Below, in pieces: positions 39,590 to 59,746 of a stretch of 63,161 nucleotides of DNA (within the stretch, counting starts at the first letter, position 1; each line of letters begins with the position of its first letter). Position numbers and translations under genes: made by a program. The notes beneath the pieces were generated by a model. It made no database searches, had not been told where the DNA came from, and saw nothing but the letters and a program-made list of their open reading frames with translations. The DNA comes from a virus: IMG/VR virus record IMGVR_UViG_3300027262_000003, positions 1-63,161 of that record; one strand, given 5' to 3'.

Positions 39590-39603
39590 TATAAATTAAA
39601 CTA

Positions 39604-40585: not shown

Positions 40586-41326
40586 TTATGTTAAAGTCTT
40601 AACAATAATAAAAATAATAAATACCAAAACACTAACTCCTAAAATAATTGATATTTTTAAAAGATACCTGTGGATTGGACCAAATAGCCCAAGATCATAT
40701 CCCAACTTCTCAGGTCTAACTATTTTCCTACTGCTGCCATATCTATTCTTAACCATTTGATCTAATCCATCTATTGAGTCCTGAGTTATTGTAGCTTTTT
40801 CATTGTAGGTATCTCCCATGATATCTTCTCTAACATGGGTATGGCTGAAACCTAAAGCATGACCCCATTCATGTATATAGAATGTCTCAAGATGATAGCT
40901 TCCTTTTTGATATTTTTGTGTGAAATATTCAGCATCATTTAATAGTATTTTTTTATCATGGTACCAGCCCAATACTCCTTTATTGAATCCATGCTTAAAC
41001 TTTTTCTTTTTGCCATTCAATAAAGTAGCAACTGCATTTCCATCTCTACCATTTACTGCTGCATAGACCTTAATGTCCGCTTTCCTGATATCAGATGTTT
41101 GTACTAGCAACAACCGATGATCTTTCAATATTTTATTCCAATGAGTTGTAGCAGCTACCATAGTTAGCAGCTGATCCCTTGTACCCATATCTTTATTGTA
41201 ATTGACCATATGCCAATAGAGAATACCATCTTTATTAAAGTCAGCTAACTTTTTAGTCTTATAATATTCCGGCCCGTTGTGGTCATGTATAGACTGGCAC
41301 CCTTGTATTACGATGTTCTCTGACAT
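40586..41326 (-). CDS. Matrixin-like zinc metalloprotease with C-terminal membrane anchor
   Basis: This 246-residue protein has the metzincin zinc site, HEWGHALGFSH (152-162), with a Met-turn in DIMGD (170). The upstream domain (ILYWHMVNYNKDMG, NILKDHRLLLVQTS, DIKVYAA) is matrixin-like. Residues about 220-243 form a membrane helix (LLKISIILGVSVLVFIIFII). There is no N-terminal signal peptide, so topology is unclear: it may be released at lysis or be inserted by its C-terminal tail. It overlaps the IPTL-CTERM-like gene by 19 nt. Confidence 0.85.
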   Translation of the reverse strand: MSENIVIQGCQSIHDHNGPEYYKTKKLADFNKDGILYWHMVNYNKDMGTRDQLLTMVAATTHWNKILKDHRLLLVQTSDIRKADIKVYAAVNGRDGNAVATLLNGKKKKFKHGFNKGVLGWYHDKKILLNDAEYFTQKYQKGSYHLETFYIHEWGHALGFSHTHVREDIMGDTYNEKATITQDSIDGLDQMVKNRYGSSRKIVRPEKLGYDLGLFGPIHRYLLKISIILGVSVLVFIIFIIVKTLT

Positions 41327-41850
41327 GGTGTATCTTGTTTAATTTCTTGATCTTTTAACTTCTGAGTGCCTACGATCATCAGACCAATTCCTAAACATGT
41401 AAGGCCCCAAAATCCTGCAGTTGGTATAGCAACACTATCTGGCTGCAAAACAATAGTAGTATCCATAGGCATAGGCTGAACCTGAATTATAGTGTCTGGA
41501 ATGATTGGAATACCGCTCTGCATGCATTGGCTAAGATCAAAGACATAAGTCGTCATAAATACCTCCTTACCTCCAGGTGCAATCGAGTCTACTATGACCC
41601 ATGCATGACCTGAATACTCTAATATCTGATCTGGCAGTATATCAAACCTTGCTATAACTTGATTTATAATGCTTTGCTGAGTCACTAAGGAATCAATATT
41701 AGATGTAGCTATTTCATTCACACTATAGATCTGATCTGCTTGTGTAGTTCCTATAAAGAAGCAAGTGTCTTGCTGTGAAAAAGCGCTGCTACAATTAAGC
41801 AGCAACGCTAAAAAACCAACACTCAATCTGACATAAATATTTTTTATCAT
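41308..41850 (-). CDS. Exported protein with IPTL-CTERM-like sorting tail
   Basis: This 180-residue protein has residues 1-25 as a signal peptide (VGFLALLLNCSSAFSQ). The central region (30-135) is beta-rich and followed by a Pro/Asp linker (IPDTIIQVQPMPMDTT). The C-terminus IPTAGFWGLTCLGIGLMIVG followed by Lys residues matches the IPTL-CTERM pattern (IPTxxxWGL, membrane helix, basic end). That pattern marks surface proteins for a dedicated sorting system in bacteria. A phage gene with this signal is unexpected. It sits between two metalloprotease genes. Confidence 0.75.
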   Translation of the reverse strand: MIKNIYVRLSVGFLALLLNCSSAFSQQDTCFFIGTTQADQIYSVNEIATSNIDSLVTQQSIINQVIARFDILPDQILEYSGHAWVIVDSIAPGGKEVFMTTYVFDLSQCMQSGIPIIPDTIIQVQPMPMDTTIVLQPDSVAIPTAGFWGLTCLGIGLMIVGTQKLKDQEIKQDTPCQRTS

Positions 41851-42908
41851 AGTCCTAACTCTTTACACATCTGATCAATAAATTCAACTGCATCAGTAAG
41901 CTTTGCGCCCTTCTGTGAGTATTGAACTTTGAATGTAGACAACCGACTTAGTACTGCTTGTTTCTTAGCTGAGTCTGATTTGGCTTTTGCTAAATCATCC
42001 TTAACATTACTAAGTTCAAATTTAGTATCTTCTAATTCTCTTTTGATTTCTTCAATCTCAATTTCCAACTCATCACATTCAGGGTTTAAATCTATAGGAT
42101 CAATAGGGTCTACGGGTTCATCGATCTGATCAAACGGGTAGTGTCGTTTGCCGAATAAAACTAAGTCCTCTGTGAAGCGGTCCTGTGGGTTTCCTGAGCT
42201 GCCGTCTAATGTTAATTTAGAACTATAAGGATAACCCATAGGATTGTGATTGTTATATGGAGAATTGTTTGTCTGTGATTCTGTTAATCGGTTAAGTATA
42301 TTATTCCTAATAGTGTTTATATCCCAATTATTTGGAGGTCCAGAAGCCCAAGCAATAACAGCTGACTCATTCCATGGTATTGGATTATTGGGATTCTGAT
42401 GTTCATGAAATAATCCCAACATATGTCCAAATTCATGTAGGACGGTTATTGAGTCTAACCATCCAAAATTCATGGTTTGTTGTGTGCTTAATGCATTAGG
42501 TATTCTACCTACAAAAGACCATGCTCCAGAATTATTAAATCCAATTCTAATGTCTGACTCACTAACAGGCACACCCCACTGAAAATCAATATTAACTACT
42601 TTCTTCCATCGTTCGGCGTTTTTAATGACAAAATTCCACTTAATAGAATTACCACCAATCCATGCCACTTTAATGGTTTGCCCAGTTTCCCAGTATCTGT
42701 TTTTTATACTGACATATCTGTCTGGTAAATTTGATATCTCTACAGGCTTAATACTGTTGTTTGTTTTTGCAAAATTATTCCACTCATCAATATTAGCAAT
42801 CTGTATGCAGTCGCCCTGCTTCTCTGAATCTATCGGGTTTAATGGTTGCTCACTGATGCAGCTAACTAAAAAAAGAAGAGCTGGAAATAAATATTTTAAA
42901 TGTCTCAT
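41847..42908 (-). CDS. Astacin-like metalloprotease lipoprotein 1
   Basis: This 353-residue protein has a lipobox LVSC (Cys17), which predicts a lipoprotein. The catalytic zinc site is HEFGHMLGLFHEH (158-170), with a Met-turn-like NPMGYPY (222-228). This fits astacin or M12A-type enzymes. Residues 258-275 are a PVDPIDPIDLN linker. The C-terminal 80 residues form a coiled coil (ELEDTKFELSNVKDDLAKAK) that may mediate trimerisation. It overlaps its neighbours by 4 nt on both sides. Confidence 0.85.
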   Translation of the reverse strand: MRHLKYLFPALLFLVSCISEQPLNPIDSEKQGDCIQIANIDEWNNFAKTNNSIKPVEISNLPDRYVSIKNRYWETGQTIKVAWIGGNSIKWNFVIKNAERWKKVVNIDFQWGVPVSESDIRIGFNNSGAWSFVGRIPNALSTQQTMNFGWLDSITVLHEFGHMLGLFHEHQNPNNPIPWNESAVIAWASGPPNNWDINTIRNNILNRLTESQTNNSPYNNHNPMGYPYSSKLTLDGSSGNPQDRFTEDLVLFGKRHYPFDQIDEPVDPIDPIDLNPECDELEIEIEEIKRELEDTKFELSNVKDDLAKAKSDSAKKQAVLSRLSTFKVQYSQKGAKLTDAVEFIDQMCKELGL

Positions 42909-43813
42909 TTGCTTTGGATTAAGTTATTGACTCTAATTAGAAGTTTTTGTATTTCTGCTTTTTCAAAATCTGTAAGGCAGTCAATCTTATCAGGATCAAC
43001 ATTAATATCGGGTTTCGTTCCCTTACCATAGACGGCTTTGATCATATCCCAGTCACCCTGCACAACTTTTCTATTTAACTTTGCTGTATTGGCTATCTTA
43101 AACGCCTCAGAGCCATTCTCAAAGACTTCTGCAGGATAGGCATAGAACATGATTGAATCCCAGTTAAGCGGTCCGAAAACTGCTGTTTTTGCCAACCTAT
43201 CTTTATAGGCAAAAAATGCATCTACTTGGAATTGTGTCCATCCTTGGCTAATTCTCCATTCAGCATATTTAACACGATTAAACTTGACATCTTTATGATA
43301 CTGCGTATGAAAAAATCCAAGCATGTGTAGTAGCTCATGTGGGATCACCCTTCCATCTTCATAGTCGCCTGTGTCATATTCTTCAAACCCTGCTGAGGTA
43401 CTTGTAGAATCTTGGTGAATCTTCCTGCAATCAGTTCCTAAATAGGATAAGCCGCCTTTTGATTCTTGAAATCCGAAACGATTATCTGCAAAAGTATTTC
43501 CATAGACTTGCAAAAATGTAAACTTCTCATTCCCTGCTGATCTAATCGTATCTTGGATTCTTGATAACCAACTCTCATAATAGCCTTGATATCTGTCAAT
43601 CGTTTCCTGACTCTTTTTTGTATTGATATAAAGATACTTGTAGGTGATTGTATCGTCTGGCCACCATAGATATTTAAGTCCTACTGATTGCTGAATTGGC
43701 TGGATGCAGTAATGATCGTGAGTGACTTCTACTGAGTTGAATGATTCAACTGGACCTGTGTAGTTGCACGCCAAAAGGAAAAGAATTGATATATATGCAA
43801 TGAATCTGTTCAC
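42905..43813 (-). CDS. Astacin-like metalloprotease lipoprotein 2
   Basis: This 302-residue protein has a lipobox LLAC (Cys16). The zinc site is HELLHMLGFFH (159-169), with the Met-turn SIMFY (220-224) at the spacing of astacins (M12A). The upstream segment TITYKYLYINTKKSQE fits the family's N-terminal domain. It is related in plan to the adjacent 353-residue enzyme but lacks the coiled-coil extension, so the two are not recent copies. The target is probably an envelope or extracellular protein. Confidence 0.87.
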   Translation of the reverse strand: MNRFIAYISILFLLACNYTGPVESFNSVEVTHDHYCIQPIQQSVGLKYLWWPDDTITYKYLYINTKKSQETIDRYQGYYESWLSRIQDTIRSAGNEKFTFLQVYGNTFADNRFGFQESKGGLSYLGTDCRKIHQDSTSTSAGFEEYDTGDYEDGRVIPHELLHMLGFFHTQYHKDVKFNRVKYAEWRISQGWTQFQVDAFFAYKDRLAKTAVFGPLNWDSIMFYAYPAEVFENGSEAFKIANTAKLNRKVVQGDWDMIKAVYGKGTKPDINVDPDKIDCLTDFEKAEIQKLLIRVNNLIQSK

Positions 43814-43834
43814 TATATTGAGTCTCTAAATTAG

Positions 43835-44881
43835 TTAATAGGCATAGTTCATATTATCATACCTTAATAAATCATAGTCATGTAAATCCTTAGTAATAAA
43901 CCGCCTAACTCGATAGACCTCATTCTGAGTCAATGTATCTGTTAATGATATACCTTCTTTAATGCTACCATCCCAGTGAGCTTTAATGAACTTGTACATA
44001 GTCGTCTCAATACAATCAGTACCAAAACAAGGCGCATCCGATGCATTCCATAATCTCGGAACCAATACGCTGTCCATCTGACTTGATAAACTTGGCTGCA
44101 TTGAGTTAGACGTATGGCAACTATTACACTTCTGATCGTATAGCTCCCAGTCACCGTATATCAGATTACTTTCCCCTCTGATAAACTTTGAAATGTTATT
44201 GTTATATGGTAGTAGATTCTGCTGAAAGGCTGACAAAGCACAAGCGACGACCTCAAAGATGATTGTGGTATCATATGCTGCTACTGCTAATTCATTCAAA
44301 TGTATGTCGTGAGCTGCTACTAATGTAAGGTCTGGCAAAAAGTGAGCTGATGATGCTTTGGTAACTTGGAATTCCCCTGGCACTTCTGTCTTGAAACCTG
44401 CCGATAAGACACGATCACCATTGAATGCAATACCTAATGATGTCCTTGACTTGACTGTTTTTTCATCAACTGGAATGGCTTTTGCTGCTACTGGATCTGC
44501 ACCCCAATTGATAAGAGACTTTACATATTTACCCCTGAATTTACCACTCCCTGCGCGTAATGGTGTCAATGCATAATATCCAGCTTCAACACTATGGCAA
44601 TCCTCACAAGCTGTTTTACTTACATCTGTAGGCATGTGAAATAGAAGGTCACCAAGCTCAATGGCTGCTGATGTGTCCTTAATGGCCATTGTGGACTTGA
44701 TCTCTACTTTTTTAGGTACTTCGTATTTATATAGCTTTGATAAGTCTGACAAGGCTTCGACTTGGGTACGATCATAGAATGGCTTATCTTGTTCAGTGCA
44801 ACTTGAAAAAGTGCAGCAAATTAATGCTGCACTTGTAATCAATAAGCTATATATAAAAAGACGAAATCTATCTTTATTCAT
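43835..44881 (-). CDS. Di-heme cytochrome c peroxidase/MauG-like lipoprotein
   Basis: This 348-residue protein has a signal peptide ending in a lipobox-like FSSC (Cys28). Two heme-binding motifs are CEDCH (92-96) and CNSCH (252-256). Spacing of about 160 residues fits the di-heme cytochrome c peroxidase/MauG family. Both full CxxCH sites are intact. The family reduces peroxide or oxidises proteins in the periplasm. No phage role is established. Neighbouring genes are 4-20 nt away in the same direction, so it is a genuine member of the phage operon in this sequence. Confidence 0.83.
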   Translation of the reverse strand: MNKDRFRLFIYSLLITSAALICCTFSSCTEQDKPFYDRTQVEALSDLSKLYKYEVPKKVEIKSTMAIKDTSAAIELGDLLFHMPTDVSKTACEDCHSVEAGYYALTPLRAGSGKFRGKYVKSLINWGADPVAAKAIPVDEKTVKSRTSLGIAFNGDRVLSAGFKTEVPGEFQVTKASSAHFLPDLTLVAAHDIHLNELAVAAYDTTIIFEVVACALSAFQQNLLPYNNNISKFIRGESNLIYGDWELYDQKCNSCHTSNSMQPSLSSQMDSVLVPRLWNASDAPCFGTDCIETTMYKFIKAHWDGSIKEGISLTDTLTQNEVYRVRRFITKDLHDYDLLRYDNMNYAY

Positions 44882-45203
44882 CAGAATTTATTTTATCACA
44901 AAAAGTGCTTTCTGGAAATTTCTCGCAAAGGAAAATATCAAGCAATTCATCTTTTAATTTTTGAGCACACCTGCATCCTAATACCTTATCTATTGCATTA
45001 ATGGCAGTGGTACCTAAGCTGATGATCTCAGCTATCCCTAACGCCTCTGGACTATGTTGATACTGAGTATATGATCTATACTCATCTGGTGACATCTTCA
45101 CATAAACAGAATCAGTCGGAAAATAGCCCACACTCTGAGAGTGCAGGCTTAAAACACTTAAACTAATAACTAATGATAAGACTATTAACCTTTTAATCAT
45201 CAA
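44874..45203 (-). CDS. Small exported protein
   Basis: This 109-residue protein has a clear signal peptide (LIVLSLVISLSVLSLHSQ). The mature part is helical (SPEALGIAEIISLGTTAINA) with Cys pairs CRC and a later C-x8-C. It lies between the TM protein and the cytochrome gene. A periplasmic spanin-like or partner role is possible. No family is recognised. Confidence 0.65.
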   Translation of the reverse strand: MMIKRLIVLSLVISLSVLSLHSQSVGYFPTDSVYVKMSPDEYRSYTQYQHSPEALGIAEIISLGTTAINAIDKVLGCRCAQKLKDELLDIFLCEKFPESTFCDKINSDE

Positions 45204-45450
45204 GTAAATTATTAGCTGTTTTTAAAGCTTCTGGTTTACCTGATATGTGTCTGATGGTTCGAGATCCTAATAAAAACCCAAATGCTGTTTCTAATAGAAA
45301 GTCTGTGTATGATGCAGGATCTAATCCTGAAATTCCACCTAATAGTTCAACTGATCCTGCCATTGCAATTACAATAAATAAATGAAGCATGGGTGAACTG
45401 GCCTTTAAGCGGTCCAATAATTGAGCCAATACGGAATTAAGTGATGTCAT
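45193..45450 (-). CDS. Small membrane protein, holin candidate
   Basis: The ATG at 45450 gives 85 residues. The frame is open to 45486 but the extra part covers the promoter region. A hydrophobic helix HLFIVIAMAGSVELLGGI and a second weaker one (FLLETAFGFLLGS) are separated by a polar turn. A Lys/Arg-containing tail follows. Two-helix small proteins in late phage regions are often holins. Experimental evidence is absent. Confidence 0.55.
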   Translation of the reverse strand: MTSLNSVLAQLLDRLKASSPMLHLFIVIAMAGSVELLGGISGLDPASYTDFLLETAFGFLLGSRTIRHISGKPEALKTANNLLDD

Positions 45451-45472
45451 GATATTAAGATTTTTAGTTATA

Positions 45473-45480
45473 TAAATATA
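45473..45480 (-). promoter_or_regulatory. -7-like element (TATATTTA)
   Basis: The minus strand has GTATATTTA 22 nt before the ATG at 45450. It matches the octamer in the 49-bp repeats and before the tape measure gene. Confidence 0.35.
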
Positions 45481-45511
45481 CAACAAAATAGTATTACTAT
45501 ATTATACTATT

Positions 45512-45928
45512 TTATCGATAGCAAACCATTTTGAAATTATCATTTACTGAATTGCCATTTTGATCTCGGAAATAAACCTTAGCATGATTATAGAAAGTCT
45601 CTACTTTATGTTCATTCCAGCTATCAGAATCAATTATACAAATAGGCTGTACTGTAAGGCTTCCTGTCGTACTCGTAAAGGGTAATCTGATATATGATAT
45701 AGCAGTAACAACTTGATTAGAATTGATATTGTAACTATCATTTAACATCCCGTTTCGCCAATCTGCTTTTGCGAAGACTAAAGAATTAGAGACGTCTTGT
45801 CCATTCAATTCGATATAATTAGAATTGATATTGCTTTCTAAGTAATTTGATTTGATTGTGTCAGCTTCAACAATGGATTGAGCTGATAGAGAAAACGTGA
45901 ATAATAGATAGATAATTAATAATTTCAT
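45512..45928 (-). CDS. Small exported protein
   Basis: This 138-residue protein has an N-terminal signal peptide (LLIIYLLFTFSLSAQS). The mature part is Asn/Ser-rich and beta-like (SNYLESNINSNYIELNGQDV). It overlaps the 1067-residue gene by ATGA, so it is probably made together with it. No family is recognised. Confidence 0.65.
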   Translation of the reverse strand: MKLLIIYLLFTFSLSAQSIVEADTIKSNYLESNINSNYIELNGQDVSNSLVFAKADWRNGMLNDSYNINSNQVVTAISYIRLPFTSTTGSLTVQPICIIDSDSWNEHKVETFYNHAKVYFRDQNGNSVNDNFKMVCYR

Positions 45929-48900
45929 CTGATTAATATTTTATAAGAATTAGATAATTGAGTACACTCGTTGACTTGTATATTGACCTGTTCGCCTTGA
46001 TCCAGTTCTATTTCATAAATAAAAGGTTCATTATTATCTATTCCTGATTGAGTTCTTATGCATCCCGAATCGTATTCATTTATAATGAATTGATCCTTCC
46101 TGTAGTAGCTTGAAAGTTCAAATATATAATTTTTTGATTCTTGTGCTATGAAAGTTTCATTGAAACTTGACGTGCCTTTTATTTCGGAGGGTAGATAATT
46201 AGTAGACATCAGATAATTTGCGTCATTTATGAGCGAAGACGGACAATTACAAAATTGATTAAAAAACTGAGATCCTCTAATGACATCAAAAGTATTACTT
46301 GTGCAATTTGACGTTACAAATCCAGAAAACCTTATAGTTGATATATCGCATGGATCAGTATTGCCAATATTAATTGTTTCAAAAATATCCTCAGTATCTC
46401 CGCAATTTGTAGTGAATGTATATTGTTGTGAAAAAACAAGGCTGCCATTTGCGATTACTTCAAAAGTTCCATCAAACTCAATAGGTCCACAACAATCATC
46501 AGAACAATTATAATTATATCCCCAAGACCAACCATATCCAGCTGCAAAACAATTAGCAGATAATGGGAATGGAGAATATGAATCAGTTCCAGTGCAACCT
46601 TCACACCCTGAAACATTAGCATTCCAGTTCTTTTCGGGGCAATTAGAATTACCTGATACATCTCTTGAATTTAAAGTATAGGTTCCGTCAGCACTTACAC
46701 TTGTGCATCCAGAATTGCCTGAGATAAGAGTCGCACTGCCGTCTGGATTTAGTATCCTTCTGCTTTCAAAGTTATCACAATCCGCACCCTGATAACTCCA
46801 ACAAAGTTCGCACTCGTCGGGATCAAATAGTAAAGTAGCATTACAGTTACAAGTTGGTGCACAATTAAATTCATTGCAGGTGGTCATTAAATTGCTGCAT
46901 CCATTAGTGCCAATGAATATGACTTGATAAAACCCATTTTCAGTTACATTGTAAGTTGAATTGCCGTTTCCACTGCCTACATTTGTATTTCCACCTCCAG
47001 TACATCCTGAACTATTCCATTTCAAAACAACCCATGTACGATCTGGGCAACTATCCGATATATTAATGCGACAATTTGAAGGGTCAAAAGAGGCTGTAGT
47101 TTGACTATCTGAACAGCTACAATTATTAACATTGCAATTCACTGTAGTTTGTGCATTCAAGGCGTTACATCCTTCACATCCTCTTACAGAAACTATCCAG
47201 TTGCCCGAAGCAGTGGCAGTAAAAGTATTGCTACTTCCATTTGGAAATTGTTGGCCAGAAGGTGAAACAAAAGTATATGTCGCATTTGGGCAATTCGTAG
47301 CACTTGCAGTTAAAATACACCCATTACTTGTTAGCGTTACTGTGCTATTACAATTACATTGCGTTACAACATCAAAGCAATGCTCCGTTCTACATTGACT
47401 GCATCCAGTAGGGGTACAAGATACTACATAGCAATATCGACCTGGGCCATCGATGTCTACAATAGTATTAAGATCTGTTAGGTTTCCGTTTTTCTCCCAT
47501 AGATCACTTGCAGAACTACAATCTCCGTAATTCCCAAATGGTGTCGGATCAAAATCATAATTCCCCGTCCCTGAGCACCACGTCTGATCAGGAAAATTAA
47601 AGCTCGGGCAATTACAGCTCGGATCAACACAATTATTAGTGATTGTCCAAGTGTCTGAAAATGTTTCTCCCGCGCAATCCCCTGAATTACAAGTTAAATT
47701 TATTGTGAATACTCCATACTCTTCACATGTGGATTGACCAACGAAAAAACTACCATTACTCGAGATATTAATATTACATCCAGACGGAGCTGTCACAGAA
47801 CCCGACCAGTTCGAACAATTATTAATAAACCAATCCGAACCTAATTGATATGAGTTAAAACCCTCGGTTGTCCAACATACTGACTCGTCGCTTGGCGCGG
47901 TGACTGTCGGTGCAGGATCACAAACTGGGTCCTGCGTACAAGTTGTTAGCTTAGCAAATCCAAAGTTTCTAACTGTACAGGGGTCCGTGGCTCCCGACAA
48001 CTGTATACCATACCAACCGTCGCCGTTGGGGCACCCTGATAAAGAAACAGTAATGTCAACGCCTGGAGTAATATTTTGTAAATTACAAAAAGACTCTGGA
48101 AAAGTAGTTGATCCCGCAGGACTTGCACCATTTCCATAATACGCGAGATTAACGTTACTATAAAGTGAGCCACAATCCGAACCAACAAAATCTATAATCA
48201 TCTCACAATCATTAACTCCTGTATCAATATTCACCTCACAATCACATACAGGCTCCAATGGAGGAACGCAATTTGCTTGTATTGATGGAGTGGTGATATC
48301 ACAACAAGCGTCTCCGTTCTGTGTAATCTTTCTAGAAGTCCATAGAGAGTTATGGCAACCCGTGTCATTGGTCATGTCATATGTCGTTATTCCTGAATTG
48401 ACTGTAAAATTTGGAGACCCTGCTTGAGCTGGACTACATTCCATAACAAGACCCTCACCACCTGCAAAGTACTCTTGACACGCAGCTGAGCTTGCATCTA
48501 CTCTAATGATACAATTATCAATAGTTACAATAGGTTCGCACAAACAGCAATTTGCAGGATCGTCTAATACAATGTTCCAGCTGCCAGACTTTTTACATCC
48601 GTCTGGAGTTTCAAGGTTAAACCCAATGCTTTGTCCTCCCTGACAACCATTATATTCAGGATTTATCGTTAAGCTGCTTTCTAAATTTGGGAGCCATTGT
48701 ATCGTAGTTCCTGCCGGTTGCAAGTTTTGTATACCTACAATGATATCATCATCATTGTAGCAAACAGCATTAGCATAACTACAATCGGGATCGACTTGAA
48801 ACGTTGCGCCTCCATCAAGCGATATCACGCATTCAAATGTAGCCACTTCAAATACCGTCACATTGAATTGAGCTATTGAGTTACATTCGGGCTTATCGCA

Positions 48901-49128
48901 GTCGCCAGAAAATCCGTAATATGTGCCACTCTCTGTGGTTATGAAACTTCCTGATCCAGTAGCTGTTAGTTCTGGTGTTCCGCTTAAATTCTTAGACCAT
49001 TTAGCATCTCTTCCCCCGCCTGTTAGAAAAGCAGCATAGCAAAACTCACACTCTATGACAGCATCAACTGTTTGAGCATTGCCTGAAAAAAATGGCAAAA
49101 TAAATAATACGATAAGTAACTTTTTCAT
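45925..49128 (-). CDS. Giant Cys-rich exported adhesin-like protein
   Basis: This 1067-residue protein has a signal peptide (LIVLFILPFFSGNAQ) followed by repeated beta domains. By hand count about 79 residues are Cys (7 percent). The recurring pattern CNC or CxC near domain borders (CLCEP, CDCEV, CNCPS, CSCSD) suggests tandem Ig-like or disulfide-knot modules. The C-terminal 90 residues (LPSEIKGTSSFNETF...SYKILIR) form a separate beta domain. No enzyme motif is seen. It is probably surface-exposed and used for adhesion or shielding. Overlaps with both neighbours indicate operon membership. Confidence 0.75.
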   Translation of the reverse strand: MKKLLIVLFILPFFSGNAQTVDAVIECEFCYAAFLTGGGRDAKWSKNLSGTPELTATGSGSFITTESGTYYGFSGDCDKPECNSIAQFNVTVFEVATFECVISLDGGATFQVDPDCSYANAVCYNDDDIIVGIQNLQPAGTTIQWLPNLESSLTINPEYNGCQGGQSIGFNLETPDGCKKSGSWNIVLDDPANCCLCEPIVTIDNCIIRVDASSAACQEYFAGGEGLVMECSPAQAGSPNFTVNSGITTYDMTNDTGCHNSLWTSRKITQNGDACCDITTPSIQANCVPPLEPVCDCEVNIDTGVNDCEMIIDFVGSDCGSLYSNVNLAYYGNGASPAGSTTFPESFCNLQNITPGVDITVSLSGCPNGDGWYGIQLSGATDPCTVRNFGFAKLTTCTQDPVCDPAPTVTAPSDESVCWTTEGFNSYQLGSDWFINNCSNWSGSVTAPSGCNINISSNGSFFVGQSTCEEYGVFTINLTCNSGDCAGETFSDTWTITNNCVDPSCNCPSFNFPDQTWCSGTGNYDFDPTPFGNYGDCSSASDLWEKNGNLTDLNTIVDIDGPGRYCYVVSCTPTGCSQCRTEHCFDVVTQCNCNSTVTLTSNGCILTASATNCPNATYTFVSPSGQQFPNGSSNTFTATASGNWIVSVRGCEGCNALNAQTTVNCNVNNCSCSDSQTTASFDPSNCRINISDSCPDRTWVVLKWNSSGCTGGGNTNVGSGNGNSTYNVTENGFYQVIFIGTNGCSNLMTTCNEFNCAPTCNCNATLLFDPDECELCWSYQGADCDNFESRRILNPDGSATLISGNSGCTSVSADGTYTLNSRDVSGNSNCPEKNWNANVSGCEGCTGTDSYSPFPLSANCFAAGYGWSWGYNYNCSDDCCGPIEFDGTFEVIANGSLVFSQQYTFTTNCGDTEDIFETINIGNTDPCDISTIRFSGFVTSNCTSNTFDVIRGSQFFNQFCNCPSSLINDANYLMSTNYLPSEIKGTSSFNETFIAQESKNYIFELSSYYRKDQFIINEYDSGCIRTQSGIDNNEPFIYEIELDQGEQVNIQVNECTQLSNSYKILIR

Positions 49129-49496: not shown

Positions 49497-50374
49497 AGAC
49501 AGTCCTCATTTTGAAAGGTGGTTTTGACAAATAGATTTGCAGAACACATGACTGTACAGCCTTCTGCATCTGTCACCTCTACATGATAGGCTCCGTCATC
49601 TGTCACTATTGGATCTTCTACTGTAGATGTAAAACCATTTGGACCTGACCATACATAAGTGAATGGTGCGTTGCTTCCTGTTACTGTCAAATCAAATTGC
49701 CCAGACGGTGTATTATTTCTGCATATTTTGACGTTCTCGACTGAACAAGATAAGTCACTGTCTGATATTACAATCTTCTCCACTGCTGCACCCATACACA
49801 TACAATCATCTGTGACATCTTCGCTGACGGTCACTGAGTAAGTACCTGCCATTATTACATCTATGCATTCTGTCGTTTCGCCTGTGCTCCATACAAAATC
49901 AGGATTGACATAATTATTAGTCACTGCACAGATCTCTACCGACTCATCACAGAGCAACTCGTAAGGTGCTGATATTTCGACTATGTATTTCTCGCAGCAA
50001 TCCTCACTGCCTCCACCTTCACATGGGATGTATAGGGTAGTGGTTCCTGATCCAACACATCCTGTACAGTCTGGAAAAGAACCTGAGTATGTAAATGAGT
50101 AAGGTCCGCAAACCATTGGATCAAAACAGTGGTCATGTGGCCATTGGCTACCCTGAGTATAAATTGTTTCGCCTACTGGTGAATTGAGAATGGTGATAGT
50201 GCCGCCTGGATCTGGCCTTAATCCATTTTCGTTAGAGTCAATTAAGTCTATGAAGTTATGACACTCTAACCAATAGGCAATATGCAATTGGTGTTTCGTA
50301 TGCTGATCATATTTATCATATGCATACCAAACACCAATTGTTATTAATATTATTAAGACTATCCAACGTTTCAA
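49493..50374 (-). CDS. Membrane-anchored Ig/PKD-like protein
   Basis: This 293-residue protein has an N-terminal hydrophobic segment (WIVLIILITIGVWYAYD), which is more like an anchor than a cleaved signal. The rest contains Ig/PKD-like or SprB-repeat-like sequence (FTYVWSGPNGFTSTVEDPIV, YHVEVTDAEGC) and many Cys. Such modules are common in Bacteroidetes surface proteins. It is encoded within the exported-protein block. Confidence 0.7.
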   Translation of the reverse strand: MKRWIVLIILITIGVWYAYDKYDQHTKHQLHIAYWLECHNFIDLIDSNENGLRPDPGGTITILNSPVGETIYTQGSQWPHDHCFDPMVCGPYSFTYSGSFPDCTGCVGSGTTTLYIPCEGGGSEDCCEKYIVEISAPYELLCDESVEICAVTNNYVNPDFVWSTGETTECIDVIMAGTYSVTVSEDVTDDCMCMGAAVEKIVISDSDLSCSVENVKICRNNTPSGQFDLTVTGSNAPFTYVWSGPNGFTSTVEDPIVTDDGAYHVEVTDAEGCTVMCSANLFVKTTFQNEDCL

Positions 50375-50383
50375 TAGTGGTTT

Positions 50384-51040
50384 TTATGGGTCGCAAATTT
50401 CTAATTGTACTGGTAATTTCACTTGTACCGTCACATCAATTGTAGACACACAACCATCTGGGAATGTCACTGTAGCCGTGAATACATCACCGTCAGTACA
50501 TGGACTACAAATTTCTGTATTGTTTCCTGTAGCGACGACTGCACCTGAGATGTCAGTCCATTCAACAGTAGACCCTGCTGGCAGTCCTGGTATATTACCA
50601 TTCATCTGATCAGTCTCACAGACTCTATGAGTACAATTCCCTTGATTACCATCTGCAACATAGCCGCCTTGACCTGGTGGCACTGGTATTGTCCTTAATT
50701 GACAAGATAAATCTGGTGCTGCTGATACTGGCACTGAGAAAATAGTAACGTTCTCACATGGAGCAGTAGGATCATCACATGTACAGGTGACTGAGAAATC
50801 AAAAGTAGGAGCTGTGAAGTTAGCAGGTATATTGTATGTAGCCACACCACTTGCATCAACGGTTACACCTGTAGAAGCAATATAAGTATATCCACTACCA
50901 TAATTGTCAGAACATCCTGCATCAACCATTCCAGTCGCTCCATTTGGACCTAAACAAATAGGATCACAAATGACATCCTGAGAGAACACTGCAATAGAAA
51001 TAAGTGATAATAGTATAATTAAAATAATCTTATCTCTCAT
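50384..51040 (-). CDS. Exported Cys-containing protein
   Basis: This 218-residue protein has a signal peptide (IILIILLSLISIAVFSQ). Two beta domains follow with Cys in pairs (VICDPICLG, VTCTCDDPTAPC, CSPC). It is similar in style to its neighbours, suggesting a family of related modules. No enzymatic site is seen. Confidence 0.68.
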   Translation of the reverse strand: MRDKIILIILLSLISIAVFSQDVICDPICLGPNGATGMVDAGCSDNYGSGYTYIASTGVTVDASGVATYNIPANFTAPTFDFSVTCTCDDPTAPCENVTIFSVPVSAAPDLSCQLRTIPVPPGQGGYVADGNQGNCTHRVCETDQMNGNIPGLPAGSTVEWTDISGAVVATGNNTEICSPCTDGDVFTATVTFPDGCVSTIDVTVQVKLPVQLEICDP

Positions 51041-51350
51041 CCTTAAAATATTTTTTAGTCATAACATAGAGTCTCAATTCACCTTCTTTTTTTTCTCTTC
51101 TTTCTTTTTCCTCTAAAGCCATTTGGTATTGAAAAACATCATTGCCATCAAGTGAAATTTTACTTTTCTTTTCAATGACTTTTAATTCCAATGATTCCTC
51201 ATCCGCTTTTCTGATGATCACTGTTTTCTTATCAATCAGCTCTGTTAATGTCCTATAAGTAATTCCTCCAAGTGGTGGAGGTGCTACAACTACCTGCCCA
51301 AATCCCACAAAGGAAATAGCCGATAAAATAAGTGTTGTGATTATTTTCAT
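51030..51350 (-). CDS. Small exported protein
   Basis: This 106-residue protein has a signal peptide (LILSAISFVGFGQ) followed by a Pro-rich start (VVVAPPPLGG) and a charged helix (ALEEKERREKKEGELRLYVM). It could be a spanin-like or periplasmic linker protein. It overlaps the next gene by 11 nt. Confidence 0.62.
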   Translation of the reverse strand: MKIITTLILSAISFVGFGQVVVAPPPLGGITYRTLTELIDKKTVIIRKADEESLELKVIEKKSKISLDGNDVFQYQMALEEKERREKKEGELRLYVMTKKYFKDER

Positions 51351-52255
51351 TGTATTTGATTTAAGCCTAAGTCAACTATCGCAGCAGCATTAAGGTGGAC
51401 ATTATCACACCAAGTATATTGCTCTGTACTATGTGCGACTCCCGAGAAGTCTATAGCGAGTTGATCAAAGGCATTATTGATATTCGTAATTCCGTTAGCT
51501 GGATAAATGACTGACCCAGTTTTTAATTTTATAAAATTCCATTCTGGTAGCTGACCTATATGACCATTTAAGCCATTGATCAAGTCAGTCATATTAGAAT
51601 AATAATTTGCTGAATTAGTCGCTCCTGTATCTGCTTCTCCTTGAGTCCATATGACTTTTAAGACATTGACATTTCTTGTGCCTGCCCATGCGATTAAATC
51701 ATCATAAGCATCTAATGTAGTCTGATATAATTCATTAGGAGTATTGACATTCCAGTCTGAGTCATTAGGGTCTTGAAATAAAGATGTACCACCGTCAGCG
51801 ACTTTTAATAATACCGTGACATTACAGTTCTCTTTTGAAAACTCATTAGCATAAACAGAACCAACTGAATAATGATCGCTGAACCCGACATATCCAGTAT
51901 TGCTACCAAATTCTAATAGATCACCAAAGCCATACCCATTACCTCCTACATTCGTATTCCATACATGAGCATCTCCGTCACTTGTAACTAAACTTAAATC
52001 ATCTCCACATCGTGCACCTGCATTAGATTGACCTAATTCGATAATCACATCAATGTTGCATCCACAAGGTCTGTATTCAGTAATACCTCCATCATCAATA
52101 AATGAAAAAACATTAGTCTCTTCTAAATATACCATCTCTGACTCATTAAAAGAATCAGAGATAGATGATTTACATGTGTCCATTTCGCTTTGCGCAAAAC
52201 CAAAGACAGAAAAAATAACTGCCACTATTCCAATATATCTCTTGAGTCCTATCAT
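51347..52255 (-). CDS. SGNH/SASA-type carbohydrate esterase, exported
   Basis: This 302-residue protein has a signal peptide (VAVIFSVFGFAQ). The catalytic block I is LGQSNAG (Ser77 as nucleophile), block III WTQGEAD (203-209) and block V DNVHLN (284-289, catalytic Asp/His). These are the hallmarks of sialate O-acetylesterase-like SGNH hydrolases, which remove acetyl groups from glycans. It directly follows the tail-fibre-like gene. It could strip acetyl groups from host capsule or O-antigen during adsorption or release. Confidence 0.85.
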   Translation of the reverse strand: MIGLKRYIGIVAVIFSVFGFAQSEMDTCKSSISDSFNESEMVYLEETNVFSFIDDGGITEYRPCGCNIDVIIELGQSNAGARCGDDLSLVTSDGDAHVWNTNVGGNGYGFGDLLEFGSNTGYVGFSDHYSVGSVYANEFSKENCNVTVLLKVADGGTSLFQDPNDSDWNVNTPNELYQTTLDAYDDLIAWAGTRNVNVLKVIWTQGEADTGATNSANYYSNMTDLINGLNGHIGQLPEWNFIKLKTGSVIYPANGITNINNAFDQLAIDFSGVAHSTEQYTWCDNVHLNAAAIVDLGLNQIQ

Positions 52256-54646
52256 TTATTTCTGTAATTCTTTGATTTGTTTTTCTAAGTCGTTTATTTT
52301 TTCAGCTTGTGCCTTTATAAGCGATAAGATTAATCCATCCATATCAGCCGTTTCTATTTTTTCATGATCGTGAATAACTCCAATGTCATGACCTACGACA
52401 TTGTAAAAATCCTCTGCCATGATACCAATATGCTGATCCTGATAACCTTGATAAGCCCACTTCGTAATGTCAACATTCAAGAACCGATCATACATTGATT
52501 GATAATTAACTGTTGAGAAATCATGCTTGAATTTCCTTGCTGATATTGCCGCCCAAGCTGTTGCACCAGCTCCTAATGTTGCACCTGTTAATTGAGCTTG
52601 ATCTGAGTACATCCATATACCATTCTGACCGACCATTTTAACCTCGTCGGTATTAGTAGAATTTAAAGGGACGTTGTTAGCTGTGTTCCATAGAAAAACT
52701 CTATCATGTAAGGCATGCGAATTAGTCCCTAATATGACTGATGAATTAGTATTATTTCCTTCATTTCCATTACCTACTGCAATGGTAGATCCTGTATTTA
52801 CAAAAACACCATTTATTCCAGATAAGAATGAATTGATTGAATTTCTATGGCTCATGTTCTGACCGCCTAAATAATTATTTTGACCGTCAAATGATCTTAC
52901 TTGCTGACCTATGACTGATGATCGACTTGTTTCATCTATTTTATTTCCAGCACCAAAGACAACATTATCAAATGAATTATCTACTCTGTTTTGCTGACCA
53001 CCTACCCAAGTGTTATCACTATTATCTATTGAATCTCTTGTACCTATAGCACCAGAGGCTAATGAATTTAAGGCTATGTTATCTTGACCAAACCATAGTC
53101 CATTTTGTGAAGCCTGAATATCATTTCTTCTACCTCCACCAAATGAGTGATGAGAAGCCCTCCAGTAATTCTCACGACCTGCAAAAAATCCAGACTGAGA
53201 TAGTTCATTGTTATTAGTCCTACCTCCTGTCATAGACCAGTTACCATTAGAAGTAACATCATTTGAATTGACTATATTAATTCTATGATTTGTCGTAACT
53301 CCCGTCATTAATGCATTATCACTATCCATCCCCGACACAATCAAATCAAAGTCACCTGTGCTGCCTCCATGTAACAATCCTGTATGTAATGTCTTATGTA
53401 ATCTTAGTACACAATTTTCATTAAACTGCCTGCCATCCTCATCTAAGTAAACTTCATTCGCACATAGTTCTTCTTCTACCGTTCCGTTTGGATTAAGAAA
53501 CTGTAATGACTCACTAATGCCATCAGCATTAGTAATTCGCTGTACAAAAGGTGGATCATGCAAGACAATTGTATCAGCTTCACATGTACTTGATACATGT
53601 ACAATCAAGGTATCTTGAGCGACATATAATGAGCTTGGATGTACCGCTGGAATATCTTCACATTCGCTGATTGAACCAACTAAGTCTAAAGGAAATGTTG
53701 TGTCCGTTCCTGTCTGTGGATCAGTAGACGTAATGATTAATTGACTACTGTCTGCATTATAGGCGAAGTCAGTAATACATGATCTACAGAATGTAACTTT
53801 GCTTCCGTCTGGAGACGTGATCGTAGTATTGCCGCCTGTATTAGTCCATGATACTGTCGTGTCTGTTATCGTATCTCCTACATTATTTGCATCCGCATCT
53901 TGTAAATTATACGTTCCATCTCCATTGTCAACCATTGTATAACAGTCAGCACATTCGCTCCCACCTTCTGGATAAGGCACTGTTGAAACTGTATTGCCGT
54001 CTACATCAATTAAGATTAAATTACCATCTGCATCTGTGCCTAAAGTGTAGCTTGGACAAGTCTCACAGAAAGTAACTACTGTGCCTTCATCAGTTGTAAA
54101 TGTTCCCGTACCTGTACCATCTATGTCTACGCTTAATATTCCATCATCACCATCTTCGCCTGGAGTTCCTGGTGCTCCAGTTTCTCCTGGTGGACCTGTT
54201 TCTCCGTCAGGTCCTGGTTCGCCTTGTGGGCCAGCCTCTCCTGGTGCTCCATCAGCACCGTCAGCTCCAGCAGGACCTGGTTCATTAGGTGGACATTCTG
54301 CACAATCCCCTACGATATCACCACCGCCTCCACCTGACTTGAGACATTCGATTAAATCAGCATCACTCGTAAAGTTTACGATTCGACTTTTTGAATATCT
54401 TGTACCATCTATATTAACCATAGTTGATGTAAATGAAACATCATTATAGCCTACAGAAAAATTACGTTGTGCGCCTGTCACCACGTCAGAGACTTGTAAT
54501 CCTTGAAATGGTGTCGCTGTATAATTCCCTGACTTAGTAAATTCTGTCTGCAATTCACAGACACATTCAATAGATATTGGATTTAATTTCTGAGCACTTA
54601 CATTAAGCGCAAAGAGTAATGAAAAAAGTAATGCTATATGTTTCAT
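52256..54646 (-). CDS. Collagen-like tail fibre with S74 self-cleaving chaperone domain
   Basis: The ATG at 54646 gives a 796-residue protein that begins with a signal peptide (IALLFSLLFALNVSAQ). The ATG at 54673 is less likely. Residues 123-169 are Gly-X-Y collagen-like repeats. About 480-650 form short repeats like YadA heads or phage fibre shafts (GAGNKIDETSRSSVIGQQ). The last 100 residues are an S74 intramolecular chaperone with ISARKFKHDF and HIGIMAEDFYNVVG, ending in a coiled coil. The catalytic Ser and Lys of ISARKFK fit auto-cleavage. The signal peptide is unusual for a phage fibre. Confidence 0.88.
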   Translation of the reverse strand: MKHIALLFSLLFALNVSAQKLNPISIECVCELQTEFTKSGNYTATPFQGLQVSDVVTGAQRNFSVGYNDVSFTSTMVNIDGTRYSKSRIVNFTSDADLIECLKSGGGGGDIVGDCAECPPNEPGPAGADGADGAPGEAGPQGEPGPDGETGPPGETGAPGTPGEDGDDGILSVDIDGTGTGTFTTDEGTVVTFCETCPSYTLGTDADGNLILIDVDGNTVSTVPYPEGGSECADCYTMVDNGDGTYNLQDADANNVGDTITDTTVSWTNTGGNTTITSPDGSKVTFCRSCITDFAYNADSSQLIITSTDPQTGTDTTFPLDLVGSISECEDIPAVHPSSLYVAQDTLIVHVSSTCEADTIVLHDPPFVQRITNADGISESLQFLNPNGTVEEELCANEVYLDEDGRQFNENCVLRLHKTLHTGLLHGGSTGDFDLIVSGMDSDNALMTGVTTNHRINIVNSNDVTSNGNWSMTGGRTNNNELSQSGFFAGRENYWRASHHSFGGGRRNDIQASQNGLWFGQDNIALNSLASGAIGTRDSIDNSDNTWVGGQQNRVDNSFDNVVFGAGNKIDETSRSSVIGQQVRSFDGQNNYLGGQNMSHRNSINSFLSGINGVFVNTGSTIAVGNGNEGNNTNSSVILGTNSHALHDRVFLWNTANNVPLNSTNTDEVKMVGQNGIWMYSDQAQLTGATLGAGATAWAAISARKFKHDFSTVNYQSMYDRFLNVDITKWAYQGYQDQHIGIMAEDFYNVVGHDIGVIHDHEKIETADMDGLILSLIKAQAEKINDLEKQIKELQK

Positions 54647-54672
54647 GTTTAAATTATTTGTGATCCAGTTCA

Positions 54673-55011
54673 TTATTCACTTTTTAATTCAGATATCTTT
54701 TTGATAATATCAGTTTGTAATGTCATAAACATCTGTTCTAAATGATCTACTCTCTTTGTCAGCTCATCGTTCTGAGTTTTCAATTGAGCGATTTCAATGT
54801 TTTTCTTTTCAATTTCTTGAGGATCTTTTCCCAGAATCGAATAAATAATCGGACTCAATGAACCGACTAAAACACCGATGATCAACTTAATGACATCATT
54901 ATTCTTTTCGGGTATCTCGAAAAAGAATAAACTAACTGTAATCATGATCACGATGACAAACATCAGGATCGCTCCATAATAATTCTTCGCCTCTTTCATA
55001 AATTCTCCCAC
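54673..55011 (-). CDS. Small membrane protein with coiled coil, holin candidate
   Basis: This 112-residue protein has two membrane helices (AILMFVIVIMITVSLFFFEI and IIGVLVGSLSPIIYSIL) linked by a polar turn. A C-terminal coiled coil (DELTKRVDHLEQMFMTL) follows. This layout is typical of class II holins. It lies between a virion-like exported gene and the tail fibre. Lysis function is inferred. Confidence 0.65.
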   Translation of the reverse strand: MGEFMKEAKNYYGAILMFVIVIMITVSLFFFEIPEKNNDVIKLIIGVLVGSLSPIIYSILGKDPQEIEKKNIEIAQLKTQNDELTKRVDHLEQMFMTLQTDIIKKISELKSE

Positions 55012-55012
55012 T

Positions 55013-56194
55013 CTATTTATTTAGTGCTTCAAAAATCAACTGACTTAAAAATGGTTCGTTTAACATACTATAATTTTTAAGCCCTAATAATTTCGCCCAG
55101 ACTTTATTTTCTTTTAATGTGTAATTTGAAGCTATTTGTTTTGCTGTTAGGTTTCTGATTTCTGAGAATTTGTCATCTGCATCAGAAATCATTTTATCTA
55201 TCTCCGATTGAAATTCATCTATCTGATTACCTGATTTTTCTTCTGCTAATTTTACGGCTGATTGGTATTCTTTTTCATTTATAAAAATAGTAGCACCTTC
55301 AATTGGTTCATCAACTCCATATGTCACGCCTTGGTCTTCCTCTAATATCCAATATTGAGTTTCTTGAATTTGATTAGCGACAACTCCTGTAATCTCATCT
55401 CTTGGATTAAATGAGAAATTAGCCTCTGATCTTAATCCTGGTATGTACCTGAAATATGAATCGCTTTGTGAGCTTGTGACTTGATACCTTTCTCTTACTT
55501 GAACTTGAACTGTAGCACCTGCTGGTACATTTAACCTATATCCATGACCACTTCCAAAAGGAATTATATTTTCTTGTACTGATCTTACGATATCAGGACT
55601 CGTATCATTTCTTGTGTCCTTGTATCTATACTTATGATAAGTCTTAGTCCATACCGGTGTCCCATTTATCACTAACCTATAGTCAGCCCATAGCCTTGCT
55701 CTATTTCTTCTGGATAATAAATAGTGATTTCCAAAATCAAGATTCACTGTCATGTCAGTTATGCAGTTAGGCGATGTTCTTGCTACACTTACATTAGCCC
55801 AATCTCCTTCAGTTCTTGGAATATTAGCATTCTGAGTTATTGGCGTCCATGCTGACCACCAGCCTGTTCGATTTGTTCCATTTTCAAAATCCCCTGTACA
55901 ACGTTCAATGTCTATGTCTGTTAGATACCCATTGTTTGCTACAAAAGCATCTACCTGAGATTCTGTTAATTGTGTATCATTCAAATCTGGATGATCTACT
56001 AATTCATTAATGCAATCTGAGAACTTATTCAAATCATCACATGATAACTCATAAGGATCTGGAAAATCTATACACTTATTAATATCTTCGCAATCAGCTT
56101 TAGCCACTCCTGCCCAGCATTCAATAAACAAGACTTCTTGAGTATTTGCTAAAGTCGCTAAAAAAGTAATTATTGTAATTAATATATATCTCAT
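55013..56194 (-). CDS. Exported structural-like protein
   Basis: This 393-residue protein has a signal peptide (LITIITFLATLANTQ). Early Cys (CWAGVAKADCEDINKC) are followed by a long beta region with LLSRRNRARLWADYRLVING. The C-terminus is helical (EEKSGNQIDEFQSEIDKMIS). It follows the 793-residue lipoprotein with a 4-nt overlap. A tail or surface-array component is inferred. Confidence 0.65.
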   Translation of the reverse strand: MRYILITIITFLATLANTQEVLFIECWAGVAKADCEDINKCIDFPDPYELSCDDLNKFSDCINELVDHPDLNDTQLTESQVDAFVANNGYLTDIDIERCTGDFENGTNRTGWWSAWTPITQNANIPRTEGDWANVSVARTSPNCITDMTVNLDFGNHYLLSRRNRARLWADYRLVINGTPVWTKTYHKYRYKDTRNDTSPDIVRSVQENIIPFGSGHGYRLNVPAGATVQVQVRERYQVTSSQSDSYFRYIPGLRSEANFSFNPRDEITGVVANQIQETQYWILEEDQGVTYGVDEPIEGATIFINEKEYQSAVKLAEEKSGNQIDEFQSEIDKMISDADDKFSEIRNLTAKQIASNYTLKENKVWAKLLGLKNYSMLNEPFLSQLIFEALNK

Positions 56195-58572
56195 TCTTTA
56201 GTTAATTTAGGACAACAATCATCTCTTGATGGTACAGCTATCGTATCAGATCTATTAGAAAACTTCTCTATGATGTAGGCTTTTCCGTCAATACAAGCTT
56301 CTTTTTCATATAAGAAACCACCAGCATTAATTGCATCTGCTATCGCTTTTATATCAGCTTCGCAAAGCTTAATTAAAAAAGCATCTTGATTTTCGCATCC
56401 TAAAGATTCTGCATTTGGATTAGGTGATAGTATTGTAGGTGATTCTTGGGCCACTCCATTTATGATTAATTCAGCACCTTCTATTACTGGGCATAAAAAA
56501 TGAAATAGCCCTGGACTTGTGCCGTCGGCTGCTGCTATCCACTGCTTACCACCAGCTGCCACTAAAGCATCGTTGAATTCAGATAGAGTAGTGCCCTTTA
56601 TGTCTCCATATTGATAGCTTACATTAGGATTAGGTCTACCTCCTGTGAATTGTAATGCGGCATCAGCACAAGCGTCGACACATTCTACTATAGGAAGTCC
56701 GACTACCTTTACTGTCTGATCTATCTCACATACTTCTATATCACAAGTTGGAAGCCTCTTAAAGCCTGTCGTGTCTGTTACTTCACCATCAATCGTGAAG
56801 ACTCCATCGCAGATCATACCAGAAAGTTGATCACCGACCTTGCAAGGGAAAGCAGAACTAATAGATAACGCTTTTCTCTTTAGTGATTCTAATTCACGCG
56901 TCAGTTGTTTTTTAACAGTCAGATTTTTAACGAGCTGCAATTTTATCTGTACTGCTGCTATCTGAACCTTGATCGGTCTAACTGGATCAAGTTGAGGCGT
57001 TGCCGTTGATGCATCACACATATAGCAAGCTTGCTCGCATATCTGATCACAACCTTGACAGGGTGCAATATCGTCGCCTGTATAGGTTTCTATGACTTGC
57101 CCAGAAGCATTGTAGTCTGTTGTATCTTGCTGAGTCCCTGTTGATTCAAAAATATCTTCACAGTTGCTTAATTCTGCTAATGTCCTTGTGAATTCTGTAC
57201 AACCATCTTCACCCGTTGTACATAGATTAATAGTGATTTTATTATAATCACATTCGCAATCGATCTTCTTAAATTCTGTAATGAATTCTAATGAGCTGCA
57301 ATCTTGGTAAGTTAGATCTCCAGTGCAGGGATTTTGATAGATCCATAGATCACCTGAGTATTGATCCTTTTCATTTCCGATTAATGCACAAATCGTATTA
57401 CCTGTTTGTATTGATACACAATCATCATCATCTACTTCGATAGGTGGCTCTGAAAAATCAGTACCATCACAATTTATGACTTCACCAGCATATTCAACAA
57501 GATCGTCAGGACTCTCAGCATTCAGATAAGAGTCTTCTGTATAGGTTTCATTGCTCCGTTCTGGGCAATCTGTTATTAATCTTACTACCCGTGGGCCAGC
57601 TGTTCCATCTTCATTTTTCTGACATAAATTAAACCTCTCAGTAGTACAAGGCGAAACTGCATCATCTTCTATGTAATATTCAAACTTGTATCCACAATCT
57701 TTAATACAATCTAATGGTATGGGCACGTCAGGGCCATTCTCTACAGGTTGCCACGTTGGTCTTTCTGTCTCTTCGTATTCGTTTGTTTCATAACCATTCT
57801 CATCAAGTATAGGCTGACAGAATTTTACTTTTTTTACGCCCTTTTCAATGACATGATAGTACCATACTGTTTTATAGGTCTCACCCAATGGAAGAGGATA
57901 CACTGTATATTGGCACCCGTCTGTAATCCTTGTCATCTTTTTAGTGCCGATTTTAAAGCAAGGATCTATACTTGTATATTTTGTAAACCTCCAAGTCGGA
58001 GCTGGCAACCTTCCAAATGCAGCATTTGTTTTATCATCTTTGAACTTGTTGCCGAAATCGGCCCATCCTTGTAATTCTGGTGTCCACAATGTATAAGGTC
58101 CAAGCTGCTCTCCTTCTCCGTATGATCTTCCATTACATCTGAATTCATCGACTATGAATCCTTGATTAAAAAAAACTAAATTAGGTCTATCGCCACAATC
58201 ATTACTGGAAGATCCAGCACTGAAACCATTGTCAAACATTGCTTCAGATATTCTAAATATGCCACAACTTGGGTTTATAATTGTTGGCAAATTACAAGAC
58301 GGTGCAACATTATCGCACGATCTTGGTATAAATTCACTGCCTACTTGATTTAAGCAATCGCATGTTGATGAATTAATAATATCAACCCAAACAGCTTGAT
58401 TTGTAATCGTATCACAAGCTTCATAAAAGTTACCAGTTACTGGCTGTCCGACTCCATTTTGTAATGCTTCTACTAAAACTGAATCGTCAGAATATAAAAT
58501 AGGTTCACTTACTTTTTTCGAGCAACCGAAAAATAAGCCGAAAACCACAAAAAAATAAATGAACCTATTCAT
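56191..58572 (-). CDS. Large Cys-rich lipoprotein
   Basis: This 793-residue protein has an N-terminal lipobox FFGC (Cys17), which predicts a lipoprotein. The chain has many Cys in CxC and CxxC patterns (STCDC, CQGCDQICEQACYMCD). It includes a coiled-coil-like KNLTVKKQLTRELESLKRK. It follows the 358-residue virion-like gene by 28 nt, and the later half shares phrase-like elements with it (GTTLSEFNDALVAAGGK; DACADAALQF). This suggests a common domain. The role could be a tail appendage or cell-surface protein. Confidence 0.7.
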   Translation of the reverse strand: MNRFIYFFVVFGLFFGCSKKVSEPILYSDDSVLVEALQNGVGQPVTGNFYEACDTITNQAVWVDIINSSTCDCLNQVGSEFIPRSCDNVAPSCNLPTIINPSCGIFRISEAMFDNGFSAGSSSNDCGDRPNLVFFNQGFIVDEFRCNGRSYGEGEQLGPYTLWTPELQGWADFGNKFKDDKTNAAFGRLPAPTWRFTKYTSIDPCFKIGTKKMTRITDGCQYTVYPLPLGETYKTVWYYHVIEKGVKKVKFCQPILDENGYETNEYEETERPTWQPVENGPDVPIPLDCIKDCGYKFEYYIEDDAVSPCTTERFNLCQKNEDGTAGPRVVRLITDCPERSNETYTEDSYLNAESPDDLVEYAGEVINCDGTDFSEPPIEVDDDDCVSIQTGNTICALIGNEKDQYSGDLWIYQNPCTGDLTYQDCSSLEFITEFKKIDCECDYNKITINLCTTGEDGCTEFTRTLAELSNCEDIFESTGTQQDTTDYNASGQVIETYTGDDIAPCQGCDQICEQACYMCDASTATPQLDPVRPIKVQIAAVQIKLQLVKNLTVKKQLTRELESLKRKALSISSAFPCKVGDQLSGMICDGVFTIDGEVTDTTGFKRLPTCDIEVCEIDQTVKVVGLPIVECVDACADAALQFTGGRPNPNVSYQYGDIKGTTLSEFNDALVAAGGKQWIAAADGTSPGLFHFLCPVIEGAELIINGVAQESPTILSPNPNAESLGCENQDAFLIKLCEADIKAIADAINAGGFLYEKEACIDGKAYIIEKFSNRSDTIAVPSRDDCCPKLTKE

Positions 58573-59677: not shown

Positions 59678-59685
59678 TGTTTTGA

Positions 59686-59721: not shown

Positions 59722-59746
59722 ATCCATTTCAACTACCAAATGTGTT

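Follow-up and report, generated by a model that had tools for sequence, protein, structure and literature searches.

IMG/VR virus record IMGVR_UViG_3300027262_000003, a viral sequence of 63,161 nt analysed over its whole length (hereafter the window), contains at positions 41308-58572 of an apparent late operon a block of genes whose products nearly all carry signals for export or membrane anchoring. We give an even chance to the reading that a tailed phage of Bacteroidota here encodes a much expanded, Sec-exported module for host contact (adhesin, fibre and esterase, receptor-binding), ending in a set of genes for envelope attack. A preliminary description of this DNA had proposed an undescribed system, which holds only in part: proteins with host-type export signals are already known from phages of Cellulophaga and Porphyromonas gingivalis, but the size of the block and its lipoproteins, metallopeptidases and c-type cytochrome go well beyond them. 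Overall, the block seems to be a known, barely discussed arrangement on an exceptionally large scale, and not a wholly new system.

Export signals within a virion operon

Twenty-five co-directional minus-strand genes form a single string from 62931 down to 39876, with many 4-nt overlaps and a largest gap of +69 nt; inside the block the spacing ranges from -19 to +28 nt. These distances bear out the earlier claim, made from tight overlaps, that the block and the virion genes constitute one operon. The virion-type genes upstream (58601-62931) encode portal-like, DUF6712-like and cysteine (Cys)-rich proteins lacking signal peptides, the DUF6712 match being weak and the portal a probable assignment from gene order.

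A hydrophobic segment for export or membrane insertion was found at the N-terminus of the products of all 17 minus-strand block genes and of 2 of 68 open reading frames (ORFs) elsewhere (Fisher 5e-16), both of the latter being spurious. By our own signal-peptide/lipobox/anchor heuristic, 15 of the 17 qualified, and the description of nearly every product from 58572 to 41308 as exported or anchored is thereby upheld. Nine are candidates for Sec export and cleavage by signal peptidase I (SPI), beginning at 41308, 44874, 45512, 45925, 50384, 51030, 51347, 52256 and 55013. In each of the nine, glutamine (Gln) immediately follows the cleavage site, an outcome with a chance probability of ~2e-9 (0.107 per protein in an 8-residue window). 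Because this Q-rule, Gln at +1 of SPI substrates, is specific to Bacteroidetes and not found in related phyla (PMC5837995), its observance argues that the signals are functional and that the host belongs to the Bacteroidetes. Lipobox genes start at 56191, 43835, 42905, 41847 and probably 49125, giving four or five lipoproteins, and three products are membrane proteins (54673-55011 with two transmembrane (TM) segments, 49493-50374 with an N-terminal anchor and the holin-like 45193-45486).

Such signals are scarce elsewhere. Only 9 Q-rule signals occurred among 1,862 ORFs of 121 comparison loci, and the window holds the most of all loci examined. Control Bacteroidota phages scored with a looser heuristic (part of crAss001, P12024S, P12002L, FCL-2, 11b, B40-8, LoVEphage and parts of others) yielded 0-7 positives per stretch, chiefly small proteins.

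Signal-bearing virion proteins of Cellulophaga phages

The preliminary description took as its premise that phage virion proteins are normally not exported. For Bacteroidota phages this is contradicted by five Cellulophaga phages, in which 10 of the 62 checked structural proteins listed from tandem mass spectrometry (MS/MS) of virions, according to GenBank annotations and not the original data, bear Q-rule signals. Four phages contribute the ten (phi10:1 gp091-gp094, phi18:3 gp085-087, phi39:1 gp25-26 and phiSM gp08), each of which is a fibre or lyase protein encoded where the structural genes end. Lysis-type genes come soon after the signal-bearing proteins in phiSM and phi18:3, as in the window, and adjoining gp08 in phiSM is gp09, a signal-bearing SGNH/lyase protein. 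Signalling peptides of flavophage lyase proteins were mentioned by Bartlau et al. (PMC8776804); our limited search of open-access papers found none that addresses the route of signal-bearing proteins to virions.

Comparison of phi18:3 gp086 with phi10:1 gp093 revealed six synonymous and no non-synonymous changes across 19 signal codons, placing the signal codons under purifying selection where compared. The signal and ~120 residues are conserved between these two proteins and the C-terminus is exchanged, as in known receptor-binding proteins. Near-identical signals and N-terminal domains with exchanged C-termini also cross GenBank families, linking phi18:3 and phi13:2 (Pachyviridae) to phi10:1 and Nekkels (Assiduviridae); the loci are L137:19545-23584, L141:24101-27392, L140:20577-25003 and L142:18530-22844. 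The Cellulophaga signal-bearing genes thus resemble a mobile exported host-contact cassette.

This cassette (phi10:1 gp091-095, phi18:3 gp085-087, phi39:1 gp25-26, phiSM gp08-09 and Nekkels 53-55) shares with the block its Q-rule Sec signals, its succession of large proteins, its place at the end of the tail or structural genes and polysaccharide-active (SGNH/lyase) or fibre domains, for which the block has SASA, collagen and PHROG tail-fibre matches. A conserved N-terminus with exchanged C-terminus is a trait of the cassette. The two differ in that the cassette comprises 2-5 genes versus ~17 in the block, and no lipoproteins, proteases or cytochrome were seen in it.

Putative host-contact genes

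The block probably divides into two functional parts, of which the first two thirds (58572-45512) contain the candidates for host contact. This role fits because the block includes PHROG tail-fibre matches and a SASA esterase. The fibre (52256-54673, 805 residues, signal VSA|Q) has a collagen repeat above the Pfam cut-off (1.4e-9) and a PHROG tail-fibre match (3e-11). It had been called an S74 collagen fibre; collagen stands, and the S74-like C-terminus remained sub-threshold (17.3 vs 22 bits, E 0.006) with no match in a second scan. The adjacent exported esterase (51347-52255, 302 residues, GFA|Q) was correctly recognized as SGNH-type, matching SASA (PF03629) at 2e-12 and 47.7 vs a 24.8-bit cut-off, and its translation contains GQSN, GEAD and DNVH, so that the catalytic Ser and His motifs are present.

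Large Cys-rich proteins flank these two. The first block gene (56191-58572) encodes a putative lipoprotein of 793 residues with 44 Cys and the lipobox FFGC, matching no Pfam or PHROG family, and 45925-49128 an exported adhesin-like protein of 1067 residues with 79 Cys, 3% K+R and cleavage at GNA|Q, for which Pfam and PHROG profile searches likewise returned no family. Between the fibre and the first gene lie a Sec/SPI protein of 393 residues (55013-56194, ANT|Q) with a beta-rich middle, C-terminal helices, no family match and an unusably poor AlphaFold model (pLDDT 44), and a putatively holin-like protein of 112 residues (54673-55011) with two TM segments, a coiled coil and a weak match to phrog_9990, of unknown function. 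Downstream of the esterase follow a small, helical, charged exported protein (51030-51350, 106 residues, GFG|Q); an exported Cys-rich protein (50384-51040, 218 residues, VFS|Q) with a weak Rib/Ig-like C-terminus (Rib 0.0069, sub-threshold); an N-terminally anchored Cys-rich Ig/SprB-like protein (49493-50374, 293 residues; SprB 2e-4, sub-threshold; PHROG Hoc-like head decoration 5e-4); and a probable Cys-rich lipoprotein (49125-49496, 123 residues, WLSC). An exported protein of 138 residues (45512-45928, LSA|Q) completes this part.

Putative envelope-attack genes

The last third (45486-39876) opens with a TM protein of 97 residues, probably holin-like (45193-45486), and an exported, perhaps spanin-like protein of 109 residues (44874-45203, LHS|Q). 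The di-haem cytochrome c of the preliminary description was confirmed as a CCP/MauG-type lipoprotein (43835-44881, 348 residues; PF03150 4.2e-7, 31.1 vs a 25.6-bit cut-off) with two CxxCH motifs, CEDCH and CNSCH. Also borne out were two astacin-type zinc metallopeptidase lipoproteins, both above the 22.5-bit PF01400 cut-off and containing HExxHxxGxxH: 42905-43813 (302 residues, 8.1e-6, 26.1 bits, HELLHMLGFFH) and 41847-42908 (353 residues, 9.3e-8, 32.4 bits, HEFGHMLGLFH), the latter related to myroilysin (2e-29).

The final block gene (41308-41850) encodes an exported protein of 180 residues (AFS|QQ) with a C-terminal TM segment (at 142) after IPTAGFWG. Its proposed likeness to IPTL-CTERM proteins, and with it XrtH sorting, was not supported, as the only match was NF033207 (midcut-by-XrtH) at E 0.028 and 14.5 vs 45 bits, far below cut-off. 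Just outside the block are a matrixin-type metallopeptidase (40586-41326, 246 residues, PF00413 3.6e-13) with a C-terminal TM segment (at 221) and no signal peptide, a DUF4031 gene (40292-40558, 9e-17) and, last in the operon, a DUF5675 gene (39876-40313, 9e-19), the two DUF genes being presumably lysis-associated.

Apart from weak matches, no relatives of the block genes tested were detected among 50,697 phage records and 396 Bacteroidota genomes, a comparison that the preliminary description had proposed. By tblastn, the first block gene, fibre and cytochrome and the window's portal-like and major capsid protein (MCP)-like products had no relatives in the phage records, and scans of viral contigs with MCP, portal and cytochrome queries gave no matches. 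Among the bacterial genomes the first block gene had no relative and the cytochrome one weak match only; a weak match of 55013 to a TolC-type gene proved false.

Interpretation of the block

In the host-contact reading, adhesins, an esterase and a fibre of collagen/S74 type, all with host-type signals, would be made late in infection from the same operon as the virion. Export of the block proteins would proceed through the Sec system of the host; SPI would cleave some and expose Gln, others would be lipidated, and all would act beyond the inner membrane. The Cys-rich adhesins, esterase and fibre, if not more, would attach to virions, in the manner of the exported depolymerase and fibre proteins of Cellulophaga phages; of the three roles first proposed for the block, decoration of virions after export thereby gains support. 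For the last third, attack on the envelope or its conditioning during lysis and release is more likely than a part in the virion; the products concerned are the holin-like protein, the small exported proteins, the two astacin lipoproteins, the membrane-bound matrixin, the cytochrome and the DUF5675 protein.

Several points weigh against this reading. Proteases and a cytochrome c made as lipoproteins are odd candidates for virion parts, virion MS/MS can contain outer-membrane contaminants, and we know of no route by which periplasmic proteins reach virions assembled in the cytoplasm before lysis. Signals are absent from phiST gp030 and from the phi40:1 and phi12:3 fibres, and export is therefore optional for fibres and no rule. 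Block and Cellulophaga proteins gave only marginal blastp matches (E 0.06-0.08); given this lack of sequence homology, the precedent is one of kind, by analogy.

The main rival, which we regard as unlikely though worth serious attention, is that the products are not virion parts and remodel the surface of the infected cell, for superinfection exclusion, aggregation of infected cells or conversion. Four to five lipoproteins and three metallopeptidases would suit such a role, the lipoproteins and cytochrome in particular favouring it, and P. gingivalis phages offer Q-rule proteins of unknown role (PMC10367356). The window astacin is also alone among the phage astacins read in having an export leader. 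Opposing this rival, the block sits in an apparent late operon with virion genes on one side and lysis genes on the other, no repressor or integrase adjoins it or was found among the window genes scanned, and the closest known arrangement, that of Cellulophaga phages, places its products in virions. More doubtful still is that the block is chiefly a lysis or egress module, acting from the periplasm to loosen or digest an unusual host envelope, capsule or sheath. Two holin-like proteins, small spanin-like exported proteins, an exported esterase, three metallopeptidases and the terminal DUF5675 gene are consistent with this, but the large Cys-rich adhesin-like proteins and collagen fibre (>3,000 residues) would have no lysis role, and known lysis cassettes comprise 3-5 small genes.

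We consider it very improbable that a bacterial cluster was joined to a phage contig or that the signal-like segments are non-functional. The coding-strand AT skew of the block does differ, and no block gene tested has phage relatives; against an artefact, the string of overlapping genes is unbroken on either side of the block, two block genes tested in the 396 Bacteroidota genomes also lacked relatives bar one false match, adjoining unexported genes are equally Cys-rich, and the Q-rule is obeyed at every candidate site.

Tailed-phage virions are held to assemble in the cytoplasm. The MS/MS-listed virion proteins of several flavophages, with host-type signals under purifying selection where compared, contrast with this view, and the window is an extreme case. 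They raise the question of when and where exported proteins join a tailed virion and whether the cell envelope participates in assembly. A bolder proposal, less likely than the host-contact reading, is that Bacteroidota tailed phages export their host-contact proteins by way of Sec and add them, outside the cytoplasm, to virions or to virions still retained at the envelope, here as a structure of 14 to 17 proteins that includes a redox protein, lipoproteins as anchors and proteases of its own. If true, such Sec-routed outer assembly would give tailed phages an envelope-side step not known so far. As a cheap genomic marker, Q-rule signals of late genes can also help to identify the host-contact proteins of uncultured Bacteroidota phages and the hosts of these phages.

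Other exported phage proteins

Exported proteins of tailed phages include lambda Lom and periplasmic or membrane proteins of T4; these are single genes acting on the host surface, unlike the block. Lom is mentioned in PMC12309495. The Q-rule proteins of the P. gingivalis 'Nixviridae' phages (PMC10367356) resemble the block in having host-type signals on phage genes in a Bacteroidetes host, but they number only five, have no known function beyond a suggested alteration of the outer membrane of the host, and are not described as a virion-operon block.

The window astacin shares its catalytic core with phage and bacterial astacins (L124, L125 and myroilysin), the phage copies being 34-39% identical to it. 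None of the other phage astacins read has a signal, whereas the window copy has a lipoprotein leader before the shared core, so that export was either gained or lost specifically. Signal-less peptidases of astacin type lie on several phage contigs (L124:9680-10801, L125:9683-10504, L145:6115-7746 and L148:5872-6624), one of which is 395 kb long.

Genomic context

The window encodes a tailed-phage gene set including a tape measure protein (PHROG E 4e-34), a Clp-type head protease and a terminase, together with NinG, a T4-type RNA ligase (18149-19186) and a helicase fused to a DNA methylase (27846-30350). A defence role found no support, as PADLOC returned coiled-coil noise only. The terminase (22192-23697) shares ~50% identity with many viral contigs and 34% with LoVEphage, and neither these ~50% relatives nor the Clp relatives display structural synteny with the window. 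It appears to be a mosaic packaging gene amid orphan portal-like and capsid-like genes. The contig ends (1-196 and 62932-63161) carry apparent halves of one ORF, which fall into different frames when simply joined; a short stretch is perhaps missing between the ends of what may otherwise be a complete circular genome.

Unexported virion-type proteins at 58601-60562, 6199-10928 and 197-766 are very Cys-rich (4.5-4.8%), which is unusual for cytoplasmic proteins and may reflect metal binding or disulfides formed after lysis. A single plus-strand tRNA-Met gene (5372-5445) is surrounded by minus-strand late genes. A plus-strand island of small genes (36941-39837) converges on the late operon and includes, at 37396-37854, a gene resembling the YopX gene of LoVEphage.

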